Shown here: positions 21,299-26,539 of the stretch, one piece after another
Layout: each line of letters begins with the position of its first letter
Position numbering within the stretch: position 1 is the stretch's first letter
Assembly: GCA_019347675.1 (NCBI GenBank)
Contig: JAHWKW010000002.1
Span: 124,001 to 188,000 of the forward strand
Direction: 5' to 3'
Length of the DNA stretch: 64,000 bases
Source of the DNA: Actinomycetota bacterium
GTDB taxonomy: Bacteria; Actinomycetota; Nitriliruptoria; Nitriliruptorales; JAHWKO01
Position numbers and translations under genes: made by a program
Notes under the pieces: model-generated
The model's database searches: none
What the model was told of the DNA's origin: nothing
Seen by the model: the letters and a program-made list of their open reading frames with translations, nothing else

Positions 21299-23203
21299 GT
21301 GTCGGAGTCCCCCCCCTCGAGTACCGCCACGCTGCTCGGCGGTCGCTACCGCGTCGTCGAGGAGATCGCGCGCGGCGGCATGGCAACGGTCCACCGCGGC
21401 GTGGACGTCGTCCTGGATCGTCCCGTCGCGATCAAGATCATGCACCGCCATCTCAGCGCTGAGCCCACCTTCCTCGACCGCTTCCTGCGTGAGGCGCGGG
21501 CCGCGGCGGGTCTGTCGCACCTCAACGTGGTCGCCGTCTACGACTGGGGACACGATCGCGACGACGCGTACCTCGTGATGGAGCAGGTCAACGGGCTGTC
21601 GTTGCGGCAGGTGCTGCGCGCCCGCGGGCGGCTCTCGCCCGCCGAGACCACCGCCGTGTTGGCCCCTGCCGCGGCGGGGATCGCAGCCGCGCACCGCCGG
21701 GGGATCGTCCACCGCGACGTCAAGCCGGACAACATCCTCGTCGCCGACGACGGCGTGGTGAAGGTCACCGACTTCGGACTGGCCCGTGCCGCCGCGACCA
21801 GCACGCAGACGTTCGCGCCGGGGTCGCTGGTGGGGTCCCCGCACTACCTGGCGCCCGAGGCGGTCCGCGACGAGCAGCTCGACGAACGCGCCGACGTGTA
21901 CGCCCTTGGCGTGGTCGCCTACGAGTGTCTGGTCGGCCACCCGCCGTTCCAAGCCGACAACGCCGTCGCCACCGCCGTGCGCCACACCCGCGAGACCGTC
22001 CCGGCACCGTCGACGATGGTGGAGGCCGCGGCAGCCCTCGACGAGGTCGTCACGACCGCCACAGCCCCCGACGCCGCCGACCGGTACCCGGATGCGGCGG
22101 CGTTCGCTGCGGCGCTCCGCGCCGCGGTCCCCGACAGCGAAGTCGTCGCAACCAGCCGTGACCCCGACCGAGCGACGGTGGTGATCCCCCCCGAGACGAC
22201 CGACACCGTCGTGCCGTCGCCCGCACCGGCCGACACGGACGTCTCCGAGCGGCCGGCGCCGCGGCGGCGCCCCCGCCAACGTCCCGGTCGGGCTCGGCGG
22301 TGGGTCCGGAAGGCCGTCGGCGCACTCGTCCTGCTGGCGTTGGTTGCCGGTGGCGGGTACCTGGCTTGGGACCGCTACGTCGCACCCGTCACGCCGGTCC
22401 CCGACGTGGTCCAGCTGTCGCGCGAGGACGCCGTCCGAGAGCTCCGAGAGTCGGGCTTCGCCCCGGCCATCGACGACGACAGCGTCTTCGACCGCACGAT
22501 CCCCGCCGACCACGTGGCCGCGCAGGACCCCACCGGCGACGTCCGCCGGGGGACCACGGTCGTGCTGACCCTGTCCGCTGGACCGCCCGATGTGCCCGGC
22601 GGCGTCCCGGAGGTCGTCAACGTCCCGGCCGCGGACGCGCAGGCAACGCTGGAGGAGCTCCACCTGGTGGTCGAGGTTCACGAGACCTACCACGAGGAGG
22701 TGGCCGAGGGCCTGGTGATCGCCGTCGACCCGCCCCCCGGGACCACCATCAAGGAAGGTGCCAGCGTGGCGCTGGCCGTGAGCCGGGGACGCCAGCCGAT
22801 CACGGTCCCCGGCGTCGTCGGCGACGGCGAAGGCGAGGCGTCGGCCGCGGTCGCCGCGGACGGCCTCGATCCGGTGGTGGTCGACCGGGTGTTCAGCGAC
22901 GAGGTTCCCGCAGGCGTGGTGGTCGACCAGCGCCCCAAGCCGGGTGCGACCGCCTACCGTCAGGACCGCGTCGAGCTGGTGGTGTCCAAGGGGCCCCAGC
23001 CGTTCCCGATGCCCGAGGTGCGTGACACGCAGCGTTCGGACGCGGTCCGGATGCTGGAGCAGCTGGGGCTGAGCGTCGAGGTCCGCGAGCAGGAGCGCAT
23101 CTTCGGGTTCGGCGGCCGCAAGGACACGGTCGCCAAGCAGGACCCAGACCCGGGCGTCACCGTCCGGCGGGGAGACCGCGTCACCATCTACGTGTGGAGG
23201 TGA
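21299..23203 (+). CDS. PASTA-domain serine/threonine protein kinase (PknB-like)
   Basis: The 634-residue receptor kinase has a Hanks-type domain (about 17-275): glycine loop EIARGGMATVHRG, VAIKIM Lys, catalytic HRDVKPDNIL, DFGLA, and activation segment GSPHYLAPE. A basic Pro-rich juxtamembrane stretch and one helix near 338-357 follow, then four extracellular PASTA repeats (about 362-634). PASTA domains bind peptidoglycan fragments and lipid II, so this kinase likely senses wall synthesis and phosphorylates division proteins. Start at GTG 21299; GTG 21281 is an alternative, with a TATCAT element just before 21299 suggesting a leaderless message. Confidence 0.95.
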   Translation: MSESPPSSTATLLGGRYRVVEEIARGGMATVHRGVDVVLDRPVAIKIMHRHLSAEPTFLDRFLREARAAAGLSHLNVVAVYDWGHDRDDAYLVMEQVNGLSLRQVLRARGRLSPAETTAVLAPAAAGIAAAHRRGIVHRDVKPDNILVADDGVVKVTDFGLARAAATSTQTFAPGSLVGSPHYLAPEAVRDEQLDERADVYALGVVAYECLVGHPPFQADNAVATAVRHTRETVPAPSTMVEAAAALDEVVTTATAPDAADRYPDAAAFAAALRAAVPDSEVVATSRDPDRATVVIPPETTDTVVPSPAPADTDVSERPAPRRRPRQRPGRARRWVRKAVGALVLLALVAGGGYLAWDRYVAPVTPVPDVVQLSREDAVRELRESGFAPAIDDDSVFDRTIPADHVAAQDPTGDVRRGTTVVLTLSAGPPDVPGGVPEVVNVPAADAQATLEELHLVVEVHETYHEEVAEGLVIAVDPPPGTTIKEGASVALAVSRGRQPITVPGVVGDGEGEASAAVAADGLDPVVVDRVFSDEVPAGVVVDQRPKPGATAYRQDRVELVVSKGPQPFPMPEVRDTQRSDAVRMLEQLGLSVEVREQERIFGFGGRKDTVAKQDPDPGVTVRRGDRVTIYVWR

Positions 23204-23255
23204 TCGGCGCCGGGTCGCGGCCTGGAAGCGCCCCGGCCCGGACGGACAGCCGTGG

Positions 23256-24215
23256 TCACTGCCAGGCGGCTCCGCGGTCGCGACCGCGCGCCGGCCAACC
23301 CAGCAGCGTCACGTCGCTCAGTGCCACGTCAGGGGACCGCTCCCCGGGGAAGCTGCCGACGACCTCGAGCGTGACGAGACGGCCGAACACCGGCTGCGGG
23401 AAGGTGACCTGCTGGTCACCGGGGAGGTCGTGGAGGCTCACCTCGAAGACCGCGTCGTCGTCGACCGACACCACCACCTGCGACACGCGTCCAGCCGCTG
23501 CGAACGCGTCGTCGTCACGCTGGTCGCCGTTGCGCACGACCAGCGCGGCGATCCACGCACGTCCGGACAGGCGCAGCTGGATCCGGCTGCCCACACCAGC
23601 GCTCTGCCACGTGGTGGACGGATCCCCGTCGACCACGAACCTGGCCGTGTCCGTCGACGAGGTTGCGCTGTTCCCGGCGATCTCGAGCGCGACGGGGTCG
23701 TCTGGGTACAGCGACGCCTCGAAAAGGGGCAGCCCGCGGGTGGCTTCCATATCGAGGCCGACCTGCCGGTAGATGAAGGCGCCGATCAGGGTGCCGATCA
23801 GCGCCCCGATCAGCACGACCAGGACGACCCGGCCGACCCGCGACGGCGAGGCCGCGGCGCTGACGGCACCGCCGTCGACCGCACCTGTCCCCGCGACAGC
23901 GAGGCTGTCCGCCAGCTCGCCGGAGTGGAGGTCGGCACCGCACCGCCCGCACACGTCGCGCGTGGGGCTGTTGGCCGCCCCGCACCGGCGGCACGTCGCG
24001 AGAACCCGCCCAGCAGGTGCAGACGCCCGCTGCTCGGCACGGTCGTCGCCCCCGAGCGTGACCGGCGGTTCGGTGGCCGCCGAGGCCGTCCTGGCCTCGG
24101 CGGGTCGGTGCAGGCGCTGCCCGCAGAAGGGACAGAACCTGGCATCGACTGCGACGGGTGCCGAGCACGACGGGCAGGCCGTCTGTGCCTCACCCGTGAC
24201 CTCGCGCCCGCCCAT
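23256..24215 (-). CDS. Double zinc-ribbon membrane protein with discoidin-like domain
   Basis: The 319-residue protein has two zinc ribbons (CPSCSAP/CPFCGQ near residues 13-35 and CRRCGAA/CGRCGAD near 80-105), a low-complexity linker, one helix (about 138-160), and an extracytoplasmic beta-rich domain with FVVDGDPSTTWQS and VSLHDLPGDQQVTFPQPVFGR. That pattern fits an NADase-type/discoidin-like ligand-binding fold. The ATG at 24215 is preferred; an in-frame start 11 codons upstream exists. The role is unknown; it may bind glycans outside the cell. Confidence 0.8.
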   Translation of the reverse strand: MGGREVTGEAQTACPSCSAPVAVDARFCPFCGQRLHRPAEARTASAATEPPVTLGGDDRAEQRASAPAGRVLATCRRCGAANSPTRDVCGRCGADLHSGELADSLAVAGTGAVDGGAVSAAASPSRVGRVVLVVLIGALIGTLIGAFIYRQVGLDMEATRGLPLFEASLYPDDPVALEIAGNSATSSTDTARFVVDGDPSTTWQSAGVGSRIQLRLSGRAWIAALVVRNGDQRDDDAFAAAGRVSQVVVSVDDDAVFEVSLHDLPGDQQVTFPQPVFGRLVTLEVVGSFPGERSPDVALSDVTLLGWPARGRDRGAAWQ

Positions 24216-24314
24216 CGTCCCCCCGCCGGACCTGCGCGCAGGGTACACACCGACGGTGCGAACCCGACGACGTGCGGTTCGCGCACACGGCGAGATCTCG
24301 ACTACCCTCCGGGC

Positions 24315-24386
24315 ATGCGATCCCGCAATCGGTACGGCTTCTGGTTCACTGGCTTCCGGCCTCGGGGCCAGCTCGACAGACGCTGA
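24315..24386 (+). CDS. Aromatic-rich leader peptide of the DAHP synthase gene
   Basis: A 23-codon reading frame begins MRSRNR, has a core YGFWFTGF, and ends with a basic tail and TGA. It lies directly before a GC hairpin and 170 bases before the aroF start. One Tyr, one Trp and three Phe in eight codons is the composition expected for a ribosome-stalling attenuator that senses charged aromatic tRNAs. A TACCCT element six bases before the ATG suggests a leaderless leader transcript. Confidence 0.75.
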   Translation: MRSRNRYGFWFTGFRPRGQLDRR

Positions 24387-24428
24387 ACGCGAGCAACGAG
24401 CGAGCCCCGGGTTTCAGCCCCGGGGCTC
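24361..24428 (+). promoter_or_regulatory. Attenuator with alternative hairpins upstream of aroF
   Basis: The terminator-like stem pairs GAGCCCCGG (24402-24410) with CCGGGGCTC (24420-24428), nine perfect pairs with a 9-base loop. The competing antiterminator pairs CTCGGGGC at 24361-24368, just after the leader's aromatic codons, with GCCCCGGG at 24404-24411. The two cannot form together. No strong T-run follows, so the hairpin may terminate weakly or act on ribosome access. Confidence 0.65.
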
Positions 24429-24485
24429 TGTGGTTCCGGTCCGAGGGGCCACCAGGTGACGAGCACAAGATCAAGGGAGGACACC

Positions 24486-25547
24486 ATGGTGGTCGTGATG
24501 CGCGCCACCGCGACCGACGAGGACGTGGCCAACGTGGTCGCCGCGGTCAGCGAGGTCGGTGGCGACGCGTTCGTCAGCCGCGGCAAGCACCAGACCATCG
24601 TGGGGCTGGTGGGAGACATCAGCCAGTTCGTCGAGCTGCCCCTGCACGCGTTCCCGGGCGTGGAGGACGTCATCCGCGTCTCGAAACCGTACAAGCTGGT
24701 CAGCATCGAGACCCACCCCCGACCGTCGACGGTGATGGTCGGCGACGTCCCCATCGGCCGGGACACGTTCACGCTGATCGCCGGGCCCTGCGCGGTCGAG
24801 ACCGAGGAGCAGACGCGGACAGCGGCCCGCATGGCGCACGACGCCGGGGCGGCGATCCTCCGCGGCGGGGCGTACAAGCCACGCACCTCGCCCTACTCCT
24901 TCCAGGGCCTGGGGGAGAAGGGCCTCGACATCCTCAAGGACGTGTCACGCGAGCTCGGCATGCCCTACGTCACCGAGGTGGTCACGCCCCGCGATGTGGA
25001 GGTCGTCGCCGACAAGGCCGACATGCTCCAGATCGGCACCCGCAACATGCAGAACTTCCAGCTGCTGAAGGAAGCCGGGTTGTCCAACAAGCCGGTGCTC
25101 TTGAAGCGTGGGATGACCGCCACGATCGAAGAGTGGATCATGGCGGCCGAGTACATCGCCCACACCGGCAACCTGCAGATCGTCCTGTGCGAACGGGGCA
25201 TCCGGACGTTCGAGACCGCCACGCGCAACACGCTCGACGTGTCGTCCGTCCCGGTCGCCCAGTCGCTGACGCACCTGCCGGTGATCGTCGACCCGTCCCA
25301 CTCCGGGGGGAAACGCGACCTCGTGTTGCCCCTGGCGCGGGCGGCGATCGCCGTCGGGGCGGACGGGGTCATCGTCGACGTGCACCCGCGCCCCGAGGTC
25401 GCACTGTGTGACGGACCGCAGGCTCTGATCCGCGACGACCTGGTGCAGCTGCGTCAGGACGTGGTCCGCTTCGCCGACCTGGTCGGTCGCCAGGTGGCCC
25501 GGCCCGCCACCGAGCAGCCCGCCGGGGCGTGGGGGCGGGGCGGGTGA
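24486..25547 (+). CDS. aroF: 3-deoxy-7-phosphoheptulonate synthase (DAHP synthase)
   Basis: The first enzyme of the shikimate pathway condenses phosphoenolpyruvate and erythrose 4-phosphate. The 353-residue protein is the AroA(I-beta)/KDO8PS-like type: an N-terminal ferredoxin-like regulatory domain (1-75, VVVMRATATDEDVANVVAAV), then the barrel with IAGPCAVET, LRGGAYKPRTSPYSFQG, IGTRNMQNF, LLKRGM and VDPSHSGGKRD. The N-terminal domain often gives feedback control by Tyr or Phe. The ATG at 24486 follows AAGGGAGG. Transcription is probably attenuated by the leader upstream. Its stop overlaps the next gene by four bases. Confidence 0.97.
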   Translation: MVVVMRATATDEDVANVVAAVSEVGGDAFVSRGKHQTIVGLVGDISQFVELPLHAFPGVEDVIRVSKPYKLVSIETHPRPSTVMVGDVPIGRDTFTLIAGPCAVETEEQTRTAARMAHDAGAAILRGGAYKPRTSPYSFQGLGEKGLDILKDVSRELGMPYVTEVVTPRDVEVVADKADMLQIGTRNMQNFQLLKEAGLSNKPVLLKRGMTATIEEWIMAAEYIAHTGNLQIVLCERGIRTFETATRNTLDVSSVPVAQSLTHLPVIVDPSHSGGKRDLVLPLARAAIAVGADGVIVDVHPRPEVALCDGPQALIRDDLVQLRQDVVRFADLVGRQVARPATEQPAGAWGRGG

Positions 25548-26539
25548 CGTCGTGCGTCGTCGTCGGCGGAGGTCTGGCAGGACTTCTCGCCGCACGGCGA
25601 CTGCGCGACGCTGGGGTGTCCGTCACCGTCTACGACGCGGGCTCGCAACCCGGTGGGCGCCTGGCGACGCGCCGGGAGATGGGTGGGGTGTGGGACGTGG
25701 GGGCGCAGCACTTCACCGCCCGCGAGGAACCGTTCGTCACGCTCGTGGACGAGATGCGGGCCACCGGGATGGTGCGGACCTGGTTCCGGGGCCTGCCTCC
25801 ACCGGACCCGCCCTACCTCGGCGCTGACGACCCGCGCCGCCACGAACCGCACCACCGCGGGCACCCCGGGATGTCCGCGATCGCCGACCACCTCGCACGC
25901 AGCCTCGACGTCCGCACGTGCGCGCCGGTCGCTCGACTGGTCCGTGACGGTGACCGGTGGCGGACCGAGACCGCCGACGCCACGACCACCTCCAGCGACG
26001 CTGTGCTGCTGACGGCCCCCGTGCCCGAATCGCTGGCGCTGCTCGACGCCGGCGGCGTCCGGCTCCCCGCAGCGGCCGCCGACGACCTGCGGGCGCTGCG
26101 GTACGAGCCCACGCTGTGTGTCCTCGGGGTGCTCGACGGTCGCAGCGAGCTGCCCGACGCCGGGGCGTGGTACGGCGACGGCGACCCGGTGTCGTGGCTG
26201 GGTGACAACCACCGTAAGGAGATATCCCCCATCCCGACGGTGACCATCCACGCCGGTGCGCAGTTCAGCCGCGAACATCTCGACGCCGACGCCGCATCCT
26301 GGACTGGTGCCCTGGCCGCGGCGGCCGAACCGCTGCTGGGCCGACCGGTCCGGGTCCACGCCACGCACCGTTGGCGGTACGCGACACCTGTGGAGCCCTA
26401 CCCGGAACGCACGCTCGTCGTCGAGGATGCGCCGCCGCTGGTCTTCGCCGGCGACGCGTTCCACGGGCCGCGGGTGGAGGGTGCTGCGCTGTCCGGGCTC
26501 GCGGCCGCCGATGTGCTGCTCGGGCGCCTCGGCACCTGA
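25544..26539 (+). CDS. FAD-dependent amine oxidase/renalase-like protein
   Basis: The 331-residue flavoprotein has an N-terminal dinucleotide fold (VVVGGGLAGLLAARRLRDAGVSVTVYDAG), the GG motif GSQPGGRLATRR and the C-terminal FAD site PPLVFAGDAFHGPRVEGAALSG. This fits the NAD(P)/FAD-dependent oxidoreductases related to renalase. The substrate is unknown. The GTG overlaps the aroF stop by four bases (GTGA), so it belongs to the same operon, although no link to aromatic synthesis is established. Confidence 0.88.
   Translation: MTSCVVVGGGLAGLLAARRLRDAGVSVTVYDAGSQPGGRLATRREMGGVWDVGAQHFTAREEPFVTLVDEMRATGMVRTWFRGLPPPDPPYLGADDPRRHEPHHRGHPGMSAIADHLARSLDVRTCAPVARLVRDGDRWRTETADATTTSSDAVLLTAPVPESLALLDAGGVRLPAAAADDLRALRYEPTLCVLGVLDGRSELPDAGAWYGDGDPVSWLGDNHRKEISPIPTVTIHAGAQFSREHLDADAASWTGALAAAAEPLLGRPVRVHATHRWRYATPVEPYPERTLVVEDAPPLVFAGDAFHGPRVEGAALSGLAAADVLLGRLGT

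Follow-up and report, generated by a model that had tools for sequence, protein, structure and literature searches.

DAHP synthase is the entry of the shikimate pathway, toward phenylalanine, tyrosine and tryptophan, and its control is best known via allostery and repressors. In Corynebacterium glutamicum, a leader peptide with the motif Phe-Tyr-Phe, aroR, is described as attenuating aroF (Neshat et al., 2014, in PMC11802643; leader: PMC4046766). According to PMC11802643, this leader responds to phenylalanine, and tyrosine is without effect despite the tyrosine codon. For the phenylalanine and tyrosine genes of Actinobacteria, a 2005 survey described no RNA structures (PMC1262725), and the aroF leader loci described here fill part of that gap.

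Our locus lies in a window of 64,000 nucleotides (the whole stretch of DNA that was analysed) from a genome whose lineage is near Nitriliruptoraceae MAGs. A gap of 237 bases separates two divergent genes, with aroF on the plus strand, so that no plus-strand gene upstream would need a terminator there. In the profile search, aroF was the sole DAHP synthase found in the genome (PF01474 absent, PF00793 at a single locus). The original prediction, made from the sequence, placed in this gap a short aromatic frame and two mutually exclusive hairpins upstream of the first shikimate enzyme, and proposed ribosome-mediated attenuation of aroF. The features are as follows.

23256-24248, minus strand: protein with a NADase-type glycan-binding domain, the upstream divergent neighbour of the aroF leader
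24303-24308, plus strand: -10-like promoter hexamer TACCCT, ending 6 nt upstream of the leader ATG
24315-24386, plus strand: leader peptide ORF MRSRNRYGFWFTGFRPRGQLDRR (predicted translation), 23 codons, ATG at 24315, TGA at 24384-24386
24333-24356, plus strand: putative regulatory codons Y G F W F T G F (Tyr, Phe, Trp), read from the sequence, with the aromatic block conserved in relatives
24349-24372, plus strand: hairpin 1:2 (pause or protector), -12.7 kcal/mol, with an equivalent in 21 of 21 loci
24361-24375, plus strand: antiterminator 5' strand (segment 2), core CTCGGGGC and outer GCTCG
24397-24411, plus strand: antiterminator 3' strand (segment 3), outer CGAGC and core GCCCCGGG
24402-24428, plus strand: terminator-like hairpin 3:4, 10-bp stem, -21.8 kcal/mol, present in 21 of 21 loci
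24473-24480, plus strand: Shine-Dalgarno sequence AAGGGAGG of aroF, unpaired probability 0.71 in the terminator state and 0.72 in the antiterminator state
24486-25547, plus strand: aroF, type I-beta (Bacillus subtilis-type) DAHP synthase, the regulated gene (NF006421, 469 bits; TIGR01361, 383 bits)

The 23-codon frame with its YGFWFTGF core was found just as predicted, and the two profile matches support the assignment of the downstream gene. The predicted antiterminator is borne out by the complementarity of CTCGGGGC (24361-24368) and GCCCCGGG (24404-24411), with seven Watson-Crick pairs and one G-U pair, and it extends further than had been proposed: a 2x2 internal loop is followed by five more pairs (GCTCG, 24371-24375, with CGAGC, 24397-24401), giving -27.4 kcal/mol for the whole 2:3 pairing. 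Likewise, GAGCCCCGG (24402-24410) can pair, as predicted, with CCGGGGCTC (24420-24428), within a full, GC-rich terminator-like stem of 10 bp. Hairpin 1:2 is a third hairpin, additional to these two; its 5' arm contains the region of the last aromatic codon, and its 3' arm is the 5' strand of the antiterminator. The weakness of the T-tract, which the prediction had given as a caveat, is real: the terminator-like hairpin of the window is followed by TGTGGTT, and the U-tract is weak in most relatives too. A GTTCCGG-like stretch stands in place of the U-tract a few nucleotides past the hairpin in many loci (24429-24445 in the window). The fold energy of the whole region is ordinary (z = -1.07), and the case therefore rests on conservation, not on stability. 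A covariance-model search of positions 23000-26000 against Rfam gave only a chance match elsewhere (E 3.5), and none of the known leader or riboswitch families (T-box, trp leader, phe leader) matched at the aroF leader.

We consider that this element is, in all likelihood, a ribosome-mediated transcription attenuator of aroF. The transcript would begin at the leader ATG, give or take a base or two, and the polymerase would synthesize the leader with a ribosome trailing behind. When charged aromatic tRNA is scarce, the ribosome would pause in the YGFWFTGF block and cover segment 1, and segments 2 and 3 would pair before segment 4 is synthesized, allowing read-through into aroF. When the aromatic tRNAs are charged, the ribosome would reach the stop codon and cover segment 2, leaving segment 3 to pair with segment 4, and transcription would end near 24430-24440. 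Thus, plentiful aromatic amino acids very probably turn aroF down through the leader. In this scheme, the frame with its codons, the competing pairings with their conservation and covariation, the spacing of the hexamer and the target gene come from the sequence comparison, while the transcription start, termination, the role of ribosome position and the amino acids sensed are inferred.

The leader peptide is probably translated from a leaderless transcript, because a -10-like hexamer ends 6-9 nt upstream of every leader start. This spacing between a TANNNT hexamer and the leader start was seen in 21 of 21 loci, where shuffling gives a chance of about 0.8% per locus; in loci with several in-frame starts, the start near the hexamer was the one picked. 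These 21 distinct loci, the window included, are those that carry an aromatic leader ORF among the aroF loci of the same order with enough upstream sequence, and four more records (L031-L034) belong to genomes already counted.

Among 60 dinucleotide shuffles of the upstream region, none had an ORF equally rich in clustered aromatic codons (p = 0.016, which is the floor). Across the 21 loci, 108 aromatic codons lie in the leader frame, compared with 9 and 16 in the other two frames. Phenylalanine, tryptophan and tyrosine are each enriched in the leaders relative to both AroF and a generic background, and all three are present in 16 of 21 leaders; these composition counts are biased upward because a leader needed at least three aromatic residues to be collected, a filter which affects the frame comparison and the pairings less. 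Codon choice within the relatives' leaders is also distinctive. TTT makes up 15 of 67 phenylalanine codons and TAT 12 of 18 tyrosine codons, against 0 of 150 and 0 of 108 in the relatives' AroF genes (p about 7e-9 and 1e-12, respectively). Such use fits a choice of slowly read codons, and part of the TTT signal, lying in a hairpin loop, could be structural. The rare-codon evidence comes from the relatives only, since the leader of the window uses TTC and TAC.

These codon counts bear on which amino acids would be sensed. The same attenuator might be controlled by a single aromatic amino acid, most likely phenylalanine, with the tyrosine and tryptophan codons as passengers, and we regard this as quite possible, if on balance doubtful. 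Phenylalanine is by far the commonest aromatic residue (67 of the 108 codons), and the description of aroR in PMC11802643 has phenylalanine and not tyrosine limitation as the one that matters, with both codons in the leader. On the other hand, tryptophan occurs in 20 of 21 leaders and tyrosine in 17, both above background, and the rare TAT accounts for 12 of the 18 tyrosine codons. This composition lends indirect support to the idea that the leader may sense phenylalanine, tyrosine and tryptophan jointly.

The predicted switching was followed in a co-transcriptional folding model, in which the RNA ends where arm 4 begins and the ribosome covers it to 13 nt beyond the first base of the A-site codon. 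In this model, arm 3 was in the antiterminator with a probability of 0.68 when aromatic codons occupied the A site, 0.41 for other codons and 0.00 at the stop codon, and a ribosome cover of 10 or 16 nt gave similar results. In the window, the antiterminator stood at about 0.8 through codon 12, 0.5 at codon 13 and 0.24 at codon 14, the last phenylalanine. The position of the last aromatic codon correlated with that of the switch codon only moderately (r = 0.50, p = 0.02), partly because of outliers such as L028, in which the last residue is a lone phenylalanine. In full equilibrium with arm 4 present, the terminator was favoured almost everywhere and most loci did not switch. A switch would therefore have to be a kinetic one, depending on timing, as is accepted for trp attenuators. 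In the co-transcriptional model, untranslated RNA also gave much antiterminator (mean 0.67; 0.80 in the window), so that hairpin 1:2 may not enforce termination without translation.

The weak U-tract would suit control at the level of translation, in which the hairpins govern access to the aroF ribosome-binding site, and leaderless short ORFs of mycobacteria are described in PMC9031893, citing Canestrari 2020, as attenuating downstream translation. However, the Shine-Dalgarno sequence of aroF lies about 45 nt past the hairpin and, in folding, is sequestered by neither the terminator nor the antiterminator, its accessibility being unchanged between the two states; control of this kind is very improbable. 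Around this site, an in-frame GTG lies 30 nt 5' of the aroF ATG in the window (24456-24488), and most relatives have a GTG or ATG 24 nt upstream of the ATG, in frame and spanning the Shine-Dalgarno sequence (M-x-R-E-D-T-x-M). The true start of aroF, judged from these codons, may be ambiguous. At the other end, the last part of aroF is shared with an ORF for a FAD-dependent oxidoreductase (window 25529-26539), and the two genes probably lie on one transcript.

Transcription attenuation by a translating ribosome, as set out above, is well supported by the comparison with relatives. The aromatic short ORF and the 1:2, 2:3 and 3:4 pairings were present in 21 of 21 leader-bearing loci of the order. 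The antiterminator core (CCCCGGGG-like) is nearly invariant and therefore tells little, but the outer helix is very variable in sequence between genera while its pairing is kept within species. Because the MAFFT alignment of this variable region was too poor for column-wise covariation, we compared own-species with cross-species pairing. Among 12 genus-level representatives, the outer helix had a mean energy of -16.3 kcal/mol in native pairings and -12.3 kcal/mol in cross-species ones, and 0 of 100,000 permutations did as well as own-species pairing; all 21 loci were also compared. In the terminator, the first outer pair occurs as A-T, G-C and C-G and the second as G-C, C-G, A-T and G-T, the second being broken in 8 loci. 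Conservation of the aromatic codons and both stems, with compensatory changes, was what the prediction had proposed to look for in related genomes, and it was found, the changes lying in the outer helix of the antiterminator and the outer pairs of the terminator. One leader of the order (L027, MPAHRSFAWPG...) has only one phenylalanine and one tryptophan, and its terminator is kept. The aromatic leader is absent from seven distinct loci (L003, L011, L012, L015, L018, L024, L025), and in six of these no matching hairpin was found at the expected place, so that where the leader is absent the terminator usually is as well. The exception, L003, keeps a terminator-like hairpin; tandem repeats of roughly 39 bases (GCTCAAGTAGCCCGGAGGGCGGTAGCACAGGAGTACCGT...) lie between this hairpin and aroF.

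A nascent arrest peptide that senses a small molecule could also stall the ribosome, in place of missing charged tRNA, and the leaders do show recurring similarity outside the aromatic residues, for example GRFF-GPG and FWRFYGYRP. The peptide sequence nevertheless diverges widely among relatives while the aromatic content and the pairings persist, and the similarity past the aromatic block falls where the codons also encode the pairing RNA strands. We judge an arrest peptide very unlikely, marginally more so than translational control.

Leaders resembling this attenuator extend beyond the order. Similar aromatic leaders precede aroF in Nocardiopsis, Streptomonospora, Glycomyces, Streptosporangiales, Nocardioides and relatives, in the Actinomycetota families f11, f12, f14 and f44, and in Syntrophaceae, Smithella and other Deltaproteobacteria MAGs. 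Outside the order, the p values are as low as 60 shuffles allow and carry no correction for the roughly 150 loci, and some weaker leaders there, such as those of Nocardioides, are marginal. Many other families have no aromatic leader before aroF. In Deltaproteobacteria and Syntrophaceae, most terminators at the aroF loci have proper T-tracts. Seven leaders of this group (L069, L075, L076, L078, L079, L081, L102) have 7-12 aromatic residues, and most of them share a VCPSLRR-like tail, whose codons probably encode an antiterminator strand. Upstream of aroF in the families f41, f32 and f76 are short ORFs in which aromatic codons immediately precede the stop (YAYAYAYAWRFR, SYYWRFS, RYYRWYWRFS), as in L175 (-185), L176 (-188), L177 and L181. 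These ORFs possibly represent a different attenuator layout; two of the f41 loci were folded and gave no clear switching hairpin. In the genome of the window itself, an aromatic leader was looked for beside trpE and not found, and none that was convincing was seen beside the prephenate dehydratase gene. Even with the limits on the p values outside the order, chance is an unlikely source of so similar a design in independent lineages, where most of the loci folded are predicted to switch. A random short ORF beside an ordinary terminator, which the ordinary regional fold z-score would allow, is hardly credible given that 21 loci conserve in-frame aromatics, covariation and a fixed promoter spacing, and that the divergent genes of the window leave no plus-strand gene upstream to terminate.

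A conserved leader that has all three end products among its codons would read tRNA charging directly at the entrance of the pathway, and natural comparisons are at hand within a single order, where some loci have the element and others lack it. It is conceivable, at a little under an even chance in our judgement, that one leader integrates phenylalanine, tyrosine and tryptophan and that such leaders, often leaderless, make up a class of aroF attenuators that is widespread but uncatalogued, spanning several Actinomycetota families, Syntrophaceae and related Deltaproteobacteria.

Compared with known systems, the trp attenuators of Corynebacterium and Streptomyces and the trpL and pheL leaders of Escherichia coli likewise combine regulatory codons in a leader peptide with hairpins that exclude each other, but each is concerned with a single amino acid. 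The E. coli trpL and pheL leaders have a canonical ribosome-binding site. As to termination, the actinobacterial trp attenuators have poly-U terminators (PMC1262725), whereas the terminator of the window has a weak T-tract. The uORFC-13-1 element (PMC8632094) resembles our locus in having an upstream ORF with one or more phenylalanine codons, a terminator and aroF downstream; it differs in being limited to Acholeplasma and environmental sequences, in having a ribosome-binding site, and in that phenylalanine alone was noted. In mycobacteria, the leaderless polycysteine attenuators (Canestrari 2020, cited in PMC9031893) also use a leaderless short ORF to sense an amino acid, but this is cysteine, and PMC9031893 describes them as regulating translation of downstream genes. 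The closest likeness, judged from the published descriptions of it that we cite, is aroR-aroF of C. glutamicum, which shares the phylum, the DAHP synthase step, an aromatic-codon leader peptide and the ribosome-mediated attenuation proposed here. By description, the leader of the window differs from the Phe-Tyr-Phe of aroR in joining phenylalanine, tryptophan and tyrosine in one block, its target is a type I-beta enzyme, and its host belongs to another class of the phylum. The occurrence in this lineage, the leader with all three aromatics and the similar leaders before aroF elsewhere in Actinomycetota and among Syntrophaceae and related Deltaproteobacteria appear to be unreported in the open-licence literature, which is what our search covered, so that the absence of an earlier report is not proof. 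Attenuation of aroF by an aromatic leader is thus already known, and the new points are its distribution and its three-residue composition.
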